The notes under the pieces are model-generated. The model was not told where the DNA came from, did not search any database, and saw only the letters and a list, made by a program, of their open reading frames with translations. The position numbers were made by a program, and so were the translations under genes. DNA of 23,315 nucleotides from a virus. Where the stretch lies: IMG/VR virus record IMGVR_UViG_3300023174_000653, positions 1-23,315 of that record; one strand, given 5' to 3'. Each line of letters starts with the position of its first letter. Position 1 is the first letter of the stretch. Positions 10,149 to 20,509 of the stretch are shown in pieces.

Positions 10149-10733
10149 GTGAGTCCATTACAGCGTTTTCCAAGTGGTATAGGAGTATTTGTTAGAGCAA
10201 CAACTACGCCTGCCCCTACAACAACAACAGTGGCTCCTACTACTACTACAGTAGCACCTACAACTACAACAGTTGCTCCTACAACAACAACTGTAGCACC
10301 AACTACTACAACAGTGGCACCTACCACAACTACTGTGGCACCTACTACTACTACCGTAGCACCTACTACTACTACCGTAGCACCTACTACTACTACTGTG
10401 GCTCCTACGACTACAACAGTAGCACCTACTACAACAACTCATGCACCAACAACTACGACTTCAGCACCTACTACTACAACAGCAGCCCCTACAACAACTA
10501 CGGCAGCCCCTACAACAACTACGGCAGCCCCTACAACAACTACGGCTGCTCCTACAACAACTACGGCTGCTCCATCAAGTGGTGTTACATGTAGTCCAGG
10601 AGATGTGGCAGTTGGTTGCTGTGCTTCAACTGGCTGTTCTTTGCCTACATATGGTGGTGGCTGTGGAACATATGGACCATGTTCACCTGCACCGTTTAAC
10701 CGTTGTGCTGCTGGATGGGAATTTACATGTTAA
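10149..10733 (+). CDS. Mucin-like PTTTT-repeat protein with Cys-rich C-terminus
   Basis: 194 aa, GTG start (AAGGAG 5 nt upstream). Residues 1-20 form a short lead (LQRFPSGIGVFVRA), with no clear signal peptide. Residues 21-139 are 17 copies of a 7-residue unit xAPTTTT, where x is P once, V ten times, H, S, then A four times. Residues 140-194 form a Gly-rich domain with eight Cys. The Thr/Pro-rich repeat resembles mucin-type O-glycosylation regions, and two glycosyltransferases plus an epimerase follow downstream. The position after fibre genes suggests a tail or virion surface protein. Function is inferred; it could simply be a flexible spacer carrying a disulfide-rich tip. Confidence 0.75.
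   Translation: MSPLQRFPSGIGVFVRATTTPAPTTTTVAPTTTTVAPTTTTVAPTTTTVAPTTTTVAPTTTTVAPTTTTVAPTTTTVAPTTTTVAPTTTTVAPTTTTHAPTTTTSAPTTTTAAPTTTTAAPTTTTAAPTTTTAAPTTTTAAPSSGVTCSPGDVAVGCCASTGCSLPTYGGGCGTYGPCSPAPFNRCAAGWEFTC
10209..10565 (+). repeat. 21-bp minisatellite coding xAPTTTT (17 units)
   Basis: Tandem in-frame array of 17 units of 21 bp. Early units use mixed Thr codons (ACA, ACT, ACC, ACG), so the protein is conserved better than DNA. Three units at 10482-10544 are identical, and the fourth (10545-10565) differs only in the first two Ala codons, pointing to recent expansion at the 3' end of the array. Confidence 0.95.
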
Positions 10734-16254: not shown

Positions 16255-16265
16255 AGGAGGTAAAT

Positions 16266-16349
16266 ATGATCAATGGTAGGGGCAGTTCAACCAACCAAAG
16301 GAGATATTTATTAACGGAAAACATAATCTGTGGCAAAGAGTTGCAATAG
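16266..16349 (+). CDS. 27-aa mini-ORF overlapping endolysin start
   Basis: Starts MINGRGSS and ends GKELQ. It has the strongest ribosome site in the window, AAAGGAGGTAAAT before ATG, yet codes for only 27 hydrophilic residues and overlaps the presumed endolysin start (16310) in another frame. It may act as a regulatory leader ORF that controls endolysin translation by coupling, or mark a frameshift joining it to the endolysin frame. No family recognised. Confidence 0.4.
   Translation: MINGRGSSTNQRRYLLTENIICGKELQ
16297..16312 (+). promoter_or_regulatory. Ribosome site deciding AUU start of endolysin
   Basis: AAAGGAG, 6-nt spacer ATATTT, then ATT AAC GGA. The spacing is ideal for initiation at ATT. 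AUU is a rare but known bacterial start (infC, pcnB) that keeps expression low and IF3-sensitive. Confidence 0.5.
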
Positions 16350-16717
16350 TCTCTTTGTTAGCGATATTTATACAATTAAACATGGCACCACAAGCAGTAC
16401 CAATCGTATATACACCAAGACCACCTCTCATGAGCGTAAATGCCAAAGAGGTAGCAAGAGAATTACTTAATAAAGAGCAATTTCTCTGTTTGACCAAGTT
16501 AGTTGGCAAGGAGTCAAGTTGGAGGCCAAGTGCTCAAAACAAGAACTCTTCAGCCTCTGGACTTGGACAGTTATTAGATTCTACATACTCTAGACTGGGT
16601 ATGAAACAGTCTGATTCAGGAGTAGCACAATTAGTTGCAACATTGTCCTACATTCATAGACGCTGGGTAACTCCATGCAACGCATGGGCTAACTGGCAAA
16701 AGCATAAGTCATACTAA
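16310..16717 (+). CDS. Endolysin: transglycosylase/lysozyme-like, secreted, probable AUU start
   Basis: 135 residues if begun at ATT 16310, 6 nt after AAAGGAG (16297-16303). The frame has no ATG, GTG or TTG between a stop at 16277 and TTG 16355; starting at 16355 or ATG 16382 would cut away much of a signal-like sequence (basic start, hydrophobic residues 11-22, then MAPQAVP). The domain shows LTKLVGKESSW with likely catalytic Glu68, SASGLGQLLDSTYSRLG, and YIHRRWVTPCNAWANW, typical of soluble lytic transglycosylase-like phage lysins that cut peptidoglycan glycan strands. A signal or anchor N-terminus would fit export without large holin pores. Confidence 0.8.
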   Translation: MNGKHNLWQRVAIVSLLAIFIQLNMAPQAVPIVYTPRPPLMSVNAKEVARELLNKEQFLCLTKLVGKESSWRPSAQNKNSSASGLGQLLDSTYSRLGMKQSDSGVAQLVATLSYIHRRWVTPCNAWANWQKHKSY

Positions 16718-16833: not shown

Positions 16834-16920
16834 ATGCCAGAAGAAATTACACAAGAAGAAATTAATAGAATTTATGACCGTGATGAAAACGGAAATAAAG
16901 TAAAAAATCAATTAGATTGA
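16834..16920 (+). CDS. 28-aa small protein, tandem copy 2
   Basis: Starts MPEEITQEEINRIY and contains DRDENGNKVK. AAGGAGA before the ATG, 10 nt after copy 1's stop. The TGA stop is part of the -35 box (TTGACA) of the downstream promoter. Highly charged, probably short helix plus turn. Conserved MPE start and RD-x-NGN-x-VK ending support real coding despite the length. Confidence 0.55.
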   Translation: MPEEITQEEINRIYDRDENGNKVKNQLD

Positions 16921-16946
16921 CACAACAAAGTAGCAGATGCTACAAT
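16917..16946 (+). promoter_or_regulatory. Strong promoter TTGACA-N18-TACAAT with extended -10
   Basis: -35 TTGACA (16917-16922, consensus) and -10 TACAAT (16941-16946) 18 nt apart, with TGC just before the -10. Predicted start about 16952-16953, at the foot of a 5' hairpin. The best vegetative promoter in the window. Confidence 0.75.
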
Positions 16947-16951
16947 AGAAC

Positions 16952-17041
16952 TCTATGTTGTTCACCTCCAAGTAACTCATAGAACCTGAAGGGCCTTACG
17001 CTGTTTCTTCCCAGTTTCTTGCGTAGGGTCCTTCTTTTTTT
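16952..17041 (+). ncRNA. Candidate small RNA 2 with anti-Shine-Dalgarno loop (~90 nt)
   Basis: Unit from strong promoter to strong terminator without a credible ORF. The 5' stem TCTATG (16952-16957) pairs with CATAGA (16978-16983), starting at the predicted +1. Its 20-nt loop holds CACCTCC (16963-16969), identical to the core of the 16S rRNA 3' end and complementary to GGAGGTG. It could pair with ribosome sites such as GGAGGT of the mini-ORF at 16266 or GGAGG at 16728. The 3' half is the terminator. Transcription and targets are predicted only. Confidence 0.55.
16988..17041 (+). terminator. Strong intrinsic terminator
   Basis: GAAGGGCCTTACGC (16988-17001) pairs with GCGTAGGGTCCTTC (17021-17034): 14 bp with two G-U pairs, followed by seven T. 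Ends sRNA 2 and upstream readthrough. Confidence 0.93.
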
Positions 17042-17047
17042 GTTTAT

Positions 17048-17077
17048 TTGACATTTGAAAAATAGTCATGGTACACT
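17048..17077 (+). promoter_or_regulatory. Promoter TTGACA-N18-TACACT with extended -10
   Basis: -35 TTGACA (17048-17053) and -10 TACACT (17072-17077), with TGG just before the -10, only a few bases after the preceding terminator. It would drive the downstream early genes, start near 17084. Confidence 0.7.
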
Positions 17078-17083
17078 GGTAAC

Positions 17084-17249
17084 ACTTCAGAGCGTTTAGA
17101 GATCGCATCAATGTTGGTTCTGGAGGGACTACGGGCAGATTGCTTGAGTCTCGTTGAATCCTCACCGCAAGTGCTGGACTACGATGCAGTACAAAGGGCG
17201 AAGCCCTGTCTTTAATTTAAAGATTTATTTCTATATGTTAAGGACAGCC
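17084..17249 (+). ncRNA. Structured leader or third small RNA
   Basis: Non-coding stretch of ~165 nt after the promoter. Possible stems: GCATC (17105-17109) with GATGC (17183-17187); GGGACT (17125-17130) with AGTCTC (17147-17152); and AGGGC-GAA-GCCCT (17195-17207), followed by TGTCTTT. The 8-mer GGACTACG occurs twice (17126 and 17176). It may be a long 5' leader or an RNA ending near 17213; the U-run is weak. I do not see a valid tRNA fold. Confidence 0.3.
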
Positions 17250-17501
17250 ATGGGCAGATTCAGAAAGGAAAAGAAAATGGGAAGTAATATAAATTGGATA
17301 GATGAAAGAAGTCCTTTCAAAAAAGAAAAGGATTATATAGATAGTAGAAATACTACTAATGGATGGAAGACTATTATTAATAGGGATAACTTTATTAATT
17401 GTAATGCTTGCACTAGAAGAATCAGAGTAAATCAAAAGATGCTTTGGCATGTAGAGTCAGATTTAAAAATGCATCAACCAAAAGATTGTAAGTTATGGTA
17501 A
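17250..17501 (+). CDS. Small zinc-finger-like protein
   Basis: 83 aa from ATG 17250 (AAGGA 5 nt upstream); ATG 17277 behind AAAGGA is an equal alternative (74 aa). After a basic, charged first half comes NCNACTRRIRVNQKMLWHVES with C51, C54 and later H75 and C80, a possible Zn site of the C2HC type. The pattern resembles small phage proteins with a CxxC knuckle and a following Trp. First gene after the structured leader. Function unknown, perhaps nucleic acid binding. Confidence 0.65.
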   Translation: MGRFRKEKKMGSNINWIDERSPFKKEKDYIDSRNTTNGWKTIINRDNFINCNACTRRIRVNQKMLWHVESDLKMHQPKDCKLW

Positions 17502-19745: not shown

Positions 19746-19774
19746 TTGCATTGTTATAATACATGTGCTACAAT
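19746..19774 (+). promoter_or_regulatory. Promoter TTGCAT-N17-TACAAT with extended -10
   Basis: -35 TTGCAT (19746-19751) and -10 TACAAT (19769-19774), TGC just before the -10. A second -10-like TATAAT lies at 19755. Would transcribe the zinc-ribbon/HNH group from ~19781. Confidence 0.6.
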
Positions 19775-19823
19775 TATTATATACAGCAGAGATGTTGTAA
19801 ATACTAATAGAAATGGGAACAAA

Positions 19824-19997
19824 ATGAATACAGAAAATATGAACGCAGTAATCTGCGTATTCTGCGAAACAATTATTGCAGATAAGATGGACTACAGCCA
19901 GACTATGGTCTGCTGGGACTGTAACGAATACAAGGGCATCACAACAGTTGGAGAATATTTGACGGAATACGGTCAAAGAACACTGGTGGTAGCATAA
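19824..19997 (+). CDS. 57-aa zinc-ribbon protein
   Basis: Starts at ATG 19824 (MNTENMNAVICVFCETII); upstream in-frame extension lies in the promoter. CVFC and MVCWDCNEY give a four-Cys zinc ribbon, followed by GITTVGEYLTEYGQRT. Weak ribosome site (GGGAAC). First gene after the promoter at 19746, about 43 nt downstream of the predicted start, so likely early. Stop overlaps the HNH gene (TAATG). Confidence 0.7.
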   Translation: MNTENMNAVICVFCETIIADKMDYSQTMVCWDCNEYKGITTVGEYLTEYGQRTLVVA

Positions 19998-20509
19998 TGA
20001 CTATGAAAAAAACATGTACAGATTGTAATAGAACATATCCTGCAACACTAGAATACTTTCATGCTAGTACAAAAGGAAAGTATGGATTACGCAGCCTTTG
20101 TAAAGTTTGTCTTCGTGAGGCTCAAATGAATTACATGAACAGCAAGACTGCAAAAGAAAGATATGAATTTAAAAGGGCTGAGCAACAAAGAAATAAACAT
20201 ACCTACAGACAAGCAAGAAGAAAAGCATCAGCATTACAAAAAGGAGTTTATCATGAGAAGTGGACAGAAAAACAATTAGATGAGACTTATGGAACAGATT
20301 GCTATATCTGCAATAAGCCTATAGACTTTAGTGCCCCAAGAACAGGAAAAGGATCAGAACTATCTTCTTGGCCAGACCATGTAATTCCTCTTTCAAGAGG
20401 TGGAGAAGATACAATTAGAAATGTTAGACCTTGCCATAGAAAGTGTAATCAGGCAAAGTACACAATGACATACGATGAGTTTATTAACTCTGACAGATAT
20501 GGACTATAA
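19997..20509 (+). CDS. HNH endonuclease with N-terminal zinc module
   Basis: 170 aa. N-terminal CTDCNRTY...LCKVC (C7, C10, C35, C38), a basic helical linker, then HNH domain: CYICNKPIDF (C102, C105), WPDHVIPLSRGG (D127, H128), NVRPCHRKCNQAK (N142, H147, C150). Complete ββα-metal site. May be a free-standing homing nuclease or take part in DNA processing. TAATG overlaps on both sides; zinc-ribbon genes flank it. Confidence 0.9.
   Translation: MTMKKTCTDCNRTYPATLEYFHASTKGKYGLRSLCKVCLREAQMNYMNSKTAKERYEFKRAEQQRNKHTYRQARRKASALQKGVYHEKWTEKQLDETYGTDCYICNKPIDFSAPRTGKGSELSSWPDHVIPLSRGGEDTIRNVRPCHRKCNQAKYTMTYDEFINSDRYGL

Follow-up and report, generated by a model that had tools for sequence, protein, structure and literature searches.

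The window analyzed here, the whole 23,315-nucleotide stretch of the virus record IMGVR_UViG_3300023174_000653, encodes a phage small RNA (sRNA) that very likely acts in trans to block translation of a distant message carrying a small CxxC protein gene and an HNH endonuclease gene (the CxxC-HNH mRNA). Computation revealed a conserved RNA structure, exposed loops, and a covarying complementarity localized to the Shine-Dalgarno (SD) sequence of that message. We infer that the sRNA is expressed and, because the duplex is positioned at the SD, that the regulation is repressive.

A preliminary description of this DNA had proposed a small RNA gene defined by a consensus promoter, a 5' hairpin presenting CACCUCC in its loop, and a terminator, and all three elements were present as described. 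The promoter had the top score in a 4-kb promoter scan, and the unit folded at -30.4 kcal/mol, with a z of -5.5 relative to shuffles. The unit consists of the following features:

16917..16946, + strand: sigma70-type sRNA promoter, TTGACA-18-TACAAT with an extended -10 (TGC), 11/12 positions, in the same place in all relatives.
16952..17041, + strand: sRNA gene, about 90 nt, based on folding and on conservation without coding signals in 45/45 testable loci.
16952..16983, + strand: hairpin 1, stem UCUAUG (16952-16957)/CAUAGA (16978-16983) with a 20-nt loop (16958-16977).
16963-16969, + strand: CACCUCC in the loop of hairpin 1 (loop 1), identical to the 16S anti-SD core.
16988..17041, + strand: terminator hairpin plus T7, with a 14-bp stem (16988-17001/17021-17034).
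17002-17020, + strand: terminator loop (loop 2), 19 nt, UGUUUCUUCCCAGUUUCUU, the main pairing element, which pairs with mRNA positions 19809-19819.

CACCTCC occurs twice in the window against 1.3 expected occurrences, which alone is not unusual, so conservation had to decide its significance. We used the lysozyme protein (window 16310-16714) as bait, so that loci were chosen independently of the RNA; 12 close relatives were fetched, and together with an alignment search this yielded 45 testable loci from one phage group. The promoter, CACCTCC hairpin, and terminator were kept in 12/12 of the loci fetched with the lysozyme protein, and a unit consisting of a promoter, a short CCUCC-exposing hairpin, and a terminator was found 3' of the lysozyme gene in 45/45 testable loci, in a few of which the contig stops within the terminator. 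Across these 45 loci, the invariant core of loop 1 was CCUCC, with a single variant (CUCCC in L168). The hairpin stems differed by group (UCUAUG/CAUAGA, UCUAUA/UAUAGA, GUUGA/UCAAC, AUUGC/GCAAU, or CUAUCGC/GCGAUAG), each pairing despite the sequence change, and loops and stems varied in a coordinated way among relatives. Loop lengths differed by 1-3 nt, indicating that the unit is not coding. Over 23 distinct variants, the folding z averaged -5.9 for the complete RNA and -2.5 for hairpin 1, and the CCUCC core was predicted to be ~80% unpaired in most variants versus ~40% on average. Both the sRNA gene and its exposed anti-SD-like loop, as originally proposed, were thus borne out in the relatives. 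RNAalifold found no structure in the MAFFT-aligned terminators because their arm lengths differ, and an arm-swap test used arms hand-picked to pair and is illustrative only. The sRNA was absent from the distant, higher-G+C relatives L188-L192; G016, an RNA-less relative of which a single partial genome was examined, is also without the target gene.

An exposed CCUCC could instead serve as a decoy that titrates Era or another protein recognizing the 16S 3' end. Era binds the 3' end of 16S rRNA (sequence GAUCACCUCC), and three loci (L145, L167, and L172) read GAUCACCUCC. However, only CCUCC is conserved; GAUCA is replaced by GUUCA, GACA, GUCA, GAACA, or GAUUA, and a decoy function leaves loop 2 unexplained, which makes this explanation extremely improbable. 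We give equally little credence to the unit being an attenuator or leader of the downstream genes, or a plain terminator, rather than an sRNA. A strong intergenic terminator at the unit's end would fit such a role, but the unit has a consensus promoter of its own 35 nt upstream, and another promoter (17048-17077) follows directly downstream. Relatives also carry different genes downstream of the unit, and its loops show covariation with a gene far away (see below).

The downstream promoter (TTGACA-18-TACACT, extended -10) belongs to a second RNA unit at 17048-17257, whose ~170-nt leader is >90% identical in 10 relatives and precedes a gene for a small CxxC protein (17277). Helices in this leader show compensatory changes (columns 81-99, UA/CG; columns 119-129, GC/UA), and it had no match in Rfam; the remaining relatives have different, apparently analogous leaders in its place. 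Elsewhere in the window, 10149-10733 encodes a protein consisting largely of APTTTTV repeats, and the homologous region of the relatives yields antisense GGAGG-rich repeats.

The preliminary description built its sRNA design on loop 1, which held up, and missed the conserved, pyrimidine-rich, 19-nt terminator loop. Among these phages, the sRNA terminator loops are mostly 16-23 nt and C/U-rich, versus mostly 4-6 nt in other terminators of the same phages, and their core is usually CUCCCGUUCUC- or CUCUCAUUCUC-like although the stems fall into several unrelated types. A long, conserved, pyrimidine-rich terminator loop pointed to a second functional loop.

The target originally named for the sRNA was the GGAGGU of a mini-ORF at 16266 in the lysozyme leader, where loop 1 would block the SD (16256-16266) and thereby act as a brake on lysis. 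This site is the only sense-strand GGAGGT in the window, it ranked first by loop 1 energy among the 21 SDs in the window and first also in G001-G004, and the synteny of the sRNA with the lysozyme gene is constant. Nevertheless, cognate pairs of loop 1 and lysozyme leader were no better than noncognate pairs (z +2.5, p 0.997), indicating no covariation. Furthermore, GGAGGU is found only in group I, while groups II and III keep the sRNA and have no GGAGG there, and the invariant C of CACCUCC would mismatch at GGAGGUAA. We consider a lysis brake acting at this site very unlikely. The broader idea of a translation brake survives as the most likely function, acting on a phage message, with the lysozyme leader replaced as target by the SD of the CxxC gene at 19824.

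The lysozyme gene itself (SLT transglycosylase, 16300-16714) has no in-frame ATG; in the relatives read, AGGAG precedes an ATT at 16310, pointing to AUU as a conserved start codon. The mini-ORF overlapping this start varies among phages in both its frame and its length. Upstream of the lysozyme gene, groups II and III (L170-L187) carry a long conserved noncoding leader in which CCTGAAAGTGTC...AAGGCGTTTAAAGGGCATCTG...TCATGGGG is repeated; this leader is possibly another structured RNA.

When loop complementarity was first scored genome by genome at all phage starts, loop 2 repeatedly matched the same gene in different phages with differing sequences; looking for extended complementarity to loop 1 at these starts gave only noise. 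We then performed a covariation scan over 39 ortholog groups in 15 phages, which compared each phage's own loop against its own gene with the loops of the other phages. The CxxC gene (window 19824-19997) ranked first of the 39 groups, with a z of -4.5 (runner-up, -2.7) and a p of 2e-4 to 4e-4, which becomes about 0.02-0.05 once the 117 tests are corrected for. A dedicated test in 14 phages gave a z of about -6.1 to -6.2 (p 5e-6), and in 18 held-out contigs cognate pairs averaged -13.9 and noncognate pairs -10.8 kcal/mol (z -5.5, p 1e-5). The z was -8.7 for all 32 contigs together and -7.1 when each distinct loop 2 was represented once; the contigs are related rather than independent samples and are mostly incomplete, the loops were delimited by hand, and all results are computational. 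The covariation persisted in group I alone (p 2e-5) and in the remaining groups (p 2e-5), and it was also seen with the longest contiguous match as the measure instead of energy. In a sliding window, the signal was confined to -22..+3 of the CxxC start codon. The complementarity is conserved, covarying, and localized to the CxxC translation start, and the RNA that carries it has its own promoter and intrinsic terminator, as expected of a trans-acting, SD-occluding sRNA.

The invariant, exposed CCUCC core would also suit a general SD sponge or host-shutoff RNA, whose anti-SD loops would dampen many host (and phage) sites while phage genes using AAGGAGAA escape. Phage genes here do have mostly AAGGAG(A) and rarely GGAGGU, and 6C/B11 and alpha-r14 use such loops on mRNA ribosome-binding sites (PMC10470900, PMC10746234). 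On the other hand, phage SDs show no depletion of GGAG followed by G (22/209 versus 149/1561 in the coding background, p 0.62), and loop 2 is better accounted for by its sequence-specific covariation with one phage gene. We regard such a sponge, which had been raised in the preliminary description, as unlikely, and it is not needed to explain the data. Repression of the CxxC-HNH mRNA is the preferred reading, and its target in the window comprises the following:

19746..19774, + strand: target mRNA promoter, TTGCAT-17-TACAAT (TTGCAT at 19746, TACAAT at 19769-19774) with an extended -10, assigned from sequence.
19809..19819, + strand: target site AGAAAUGGGAA, covering the SD of the CxxC gene and pairing with loop 2.
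19824..19997, + strand: target gene, encoding a 57-aa protein with two CxxC motifs (zinc-ribbon-like), with orthologs in 16/18 and 20/29 contigs.
19997..20509, + strand: HNH/endonuclease VII-like gene, the second cistron of the target mRNA (HNH, 9e-8; PHROG endonuclease VII, 1e-24).

The leader of the target mRNA is short and has a 5' hairpin. Searches of the CxxC protein against Pfam and PHROGs gave weak matches only and no confident family. In the window, the HNH gene ATG overlaps the CxxC stop (TAATG), and a TAATG or ATGA overlap is nearly always found in relatives. The gene 3' of the CxxC cistron is HNH-type in the sequences read, and its kind differs between close relatives (endonuclease VII-like or a shorter HNH); the assignment has HMM support for the window copy, and the copies of other phages were judged from sequence. 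The endonucleases look as if they have been exchanged behind a fixed regulatory leader (19997-20509 and homologous loci). In G007 (L206 and L207), a contig of 34,446 bases carries the sRNA at one end and its target at the other; closure of the contig on itself would place them ~3.3 kb apart, which hints at permuted ends and a genome size near 34 kb.

In the window, UUCCCA (17008-17013) and UUUCU (17015-17019) of loop 2 pair with AGAAAUGGGAA (19809-19819) across a one-nt bulge at -11.7 kcal/mol; this duplex is among the weaker pairs, the 4th best of 12 loop sets, and pairs were also weak in G017, G033, and G025. Elsewhere the pairing is UCUCAAUUUCC with GGAAAUUGAGA in G006 (11 bp), UCUCAUUCUC with GAGAAUGAGA in G010 (10 bp), UACCCGUUCCU with AGGAAUGGGUA in G015 (11 bp including one GU), UAUUGCUCCC with GGGAGCAGUA in G001 and G021, and UCCCAUUC with GAAUGGGA in G005. 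Loop 1 pairs instead in group II (G012, G013, G024, and G043), where CUCCUAAGU or CUCCUGAGU matches ACUUAGGAG, and in G007, where CUCCUGAU matches AUCAGGAG.

We propose that the sRNA would be transcribed from its own strong promoter, would end at its own terminator, and would present two C/U-rich loops. Its terminator loop, replaced in this role by the CCUCC loop of hairpin 1 in group II and G007, would pair with the SD region of the CxxC-HNH mRNA, 2.8 kb away, and the resulting duplex would keep 30S subunits off the first start codon. Coupling through the overlapping TAATG junction should lower HNH endonuclease as well. The HNH cistron has an SD of the GGUG/GAGGUG/GGAGGUG type, versus the usual AAGGAGAA in these phages, and loop 1 binds the HNH start region strongly (mean -12.5 versus -8.7, sd 1.2, over ortholog groups). 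It is plausible that CACCUCC of loop 1 contacts and holds this second SD (GGUG/GGAGGUG) of the same mRNA. Loop 1 did not covary with the HNH start (p 0.31), which leaves the invariance of CACCUCC in part unaccounted for.

In this sRNA family of uncultured freshwater phages, the RNA has a promoter of its own and its target emerged from covariation across tens of genomes; evidence of this kind is seldom available for an sRNA ahead of experiment, and it provides a directly testable RNA-mRNA pair. It suggests that the endonuclease operon of these phages is restrained post-transcriptionally, and the varied pairing types prompt the question of whether specificity between competing phages could be RNA-based. 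Loop 2 and the CxxC SD (GGGAGCA, AGAAAUGGGAA, GAAUGGGA, GAGAAUGAG, GGAAAUUGAGA, and ACUUAGGAG, for example) might form coevolving specificity types that make the sRNA an allele-specific determinant of immunity or incompatibility. We offer this as a speculative and rather doubtful extension; if true, the CxxC-HNH message of same-type phages would be silenced, and that of other types would not, at an endonuclease-swapping locus.

Nucleotide searches against isolated phages gave weak, chance-like matches only, and neither the exact RNA pattern nor capsid alignment found anything in 84,980 species genomes; the capsid was nearest to those of Mycobacterium phages, at about 37%. Rfam, at gathering and relaxed thresholds, yielded nothing useful for the window. 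A published review of phage-derived sRNAs deals predominantly with prophages and cis-antisense RNAs and includes sar, OOP, PAK_P4as15, and CfrI (PMC12197685). Like the phage sRNA described here, the reviewed RNAs regulate phage genes, and CfrI adjoins a homing endonuclease gene (PMC12197685); the listed cis-antisense RNAs overlap their targets, whereas the present sRNA is encoded 2.8 kb from its target and pairs through short loop segments. We found no phage RNA of such a design in that review (PMC12197685) or in a wider literature search of incomplete coverage.

Among cellular RNAs, alpha-r14/NfeR1 of Rhizobiales has an ultraconserved anti-SD motif in several loops while its stems drift (PMC3927594, PMC10746234), and the phage sRNA likewise holds a conserved anti-SD loop on drifting stems. 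The rhizobial RNA differs in having CCUCCUCCC in three loops, in its alphaproteobacterial chromosomal location, and in its architecture, and we rejected membership in this family because CCUCCUCCC is absent from the sRNA variants read. Another likeness is to 6C/B11 of Actinobacteria (RF01066), a ~100-nt RNA with two C-rich-loop hairpins that act on ribosome-binding sites (PMC10470900, PMC4046766); the size, the two hairpins, and the C-rich loops directed at ribosome-binding sites are shared, and the host group here is likely actinobacterial. The phage sRNA loops are CACCUCC and UUCCCA/CUCCCGUUCU rather than runs of six C, and the RNA is phage-borne with one covarying target. The RF01066 covariance model had no match in the window even at a relaxed threshold, and the same search found Corynebacterium glutamicum among control genomes, below the family cut-off. 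Without an RF01066 match and without about six consecutive C in each loop, the phage sRNA was rejected as a 6C member.

RepG of Helicobacter pylori provides a further functional parallel, since its C/U-rich terminator loop is the pairing element and acts on the 5'UTR of the bicistronic tlpB-hp0102 mRNA (PMC8295292). RepG is a cellular RNA whose target is a phase-variable G-repeat, and what we claim is a likeness of function, not homology. The best reading is that the phage sRNA works like RepG and 6C/B11 but belongs to none of those families.
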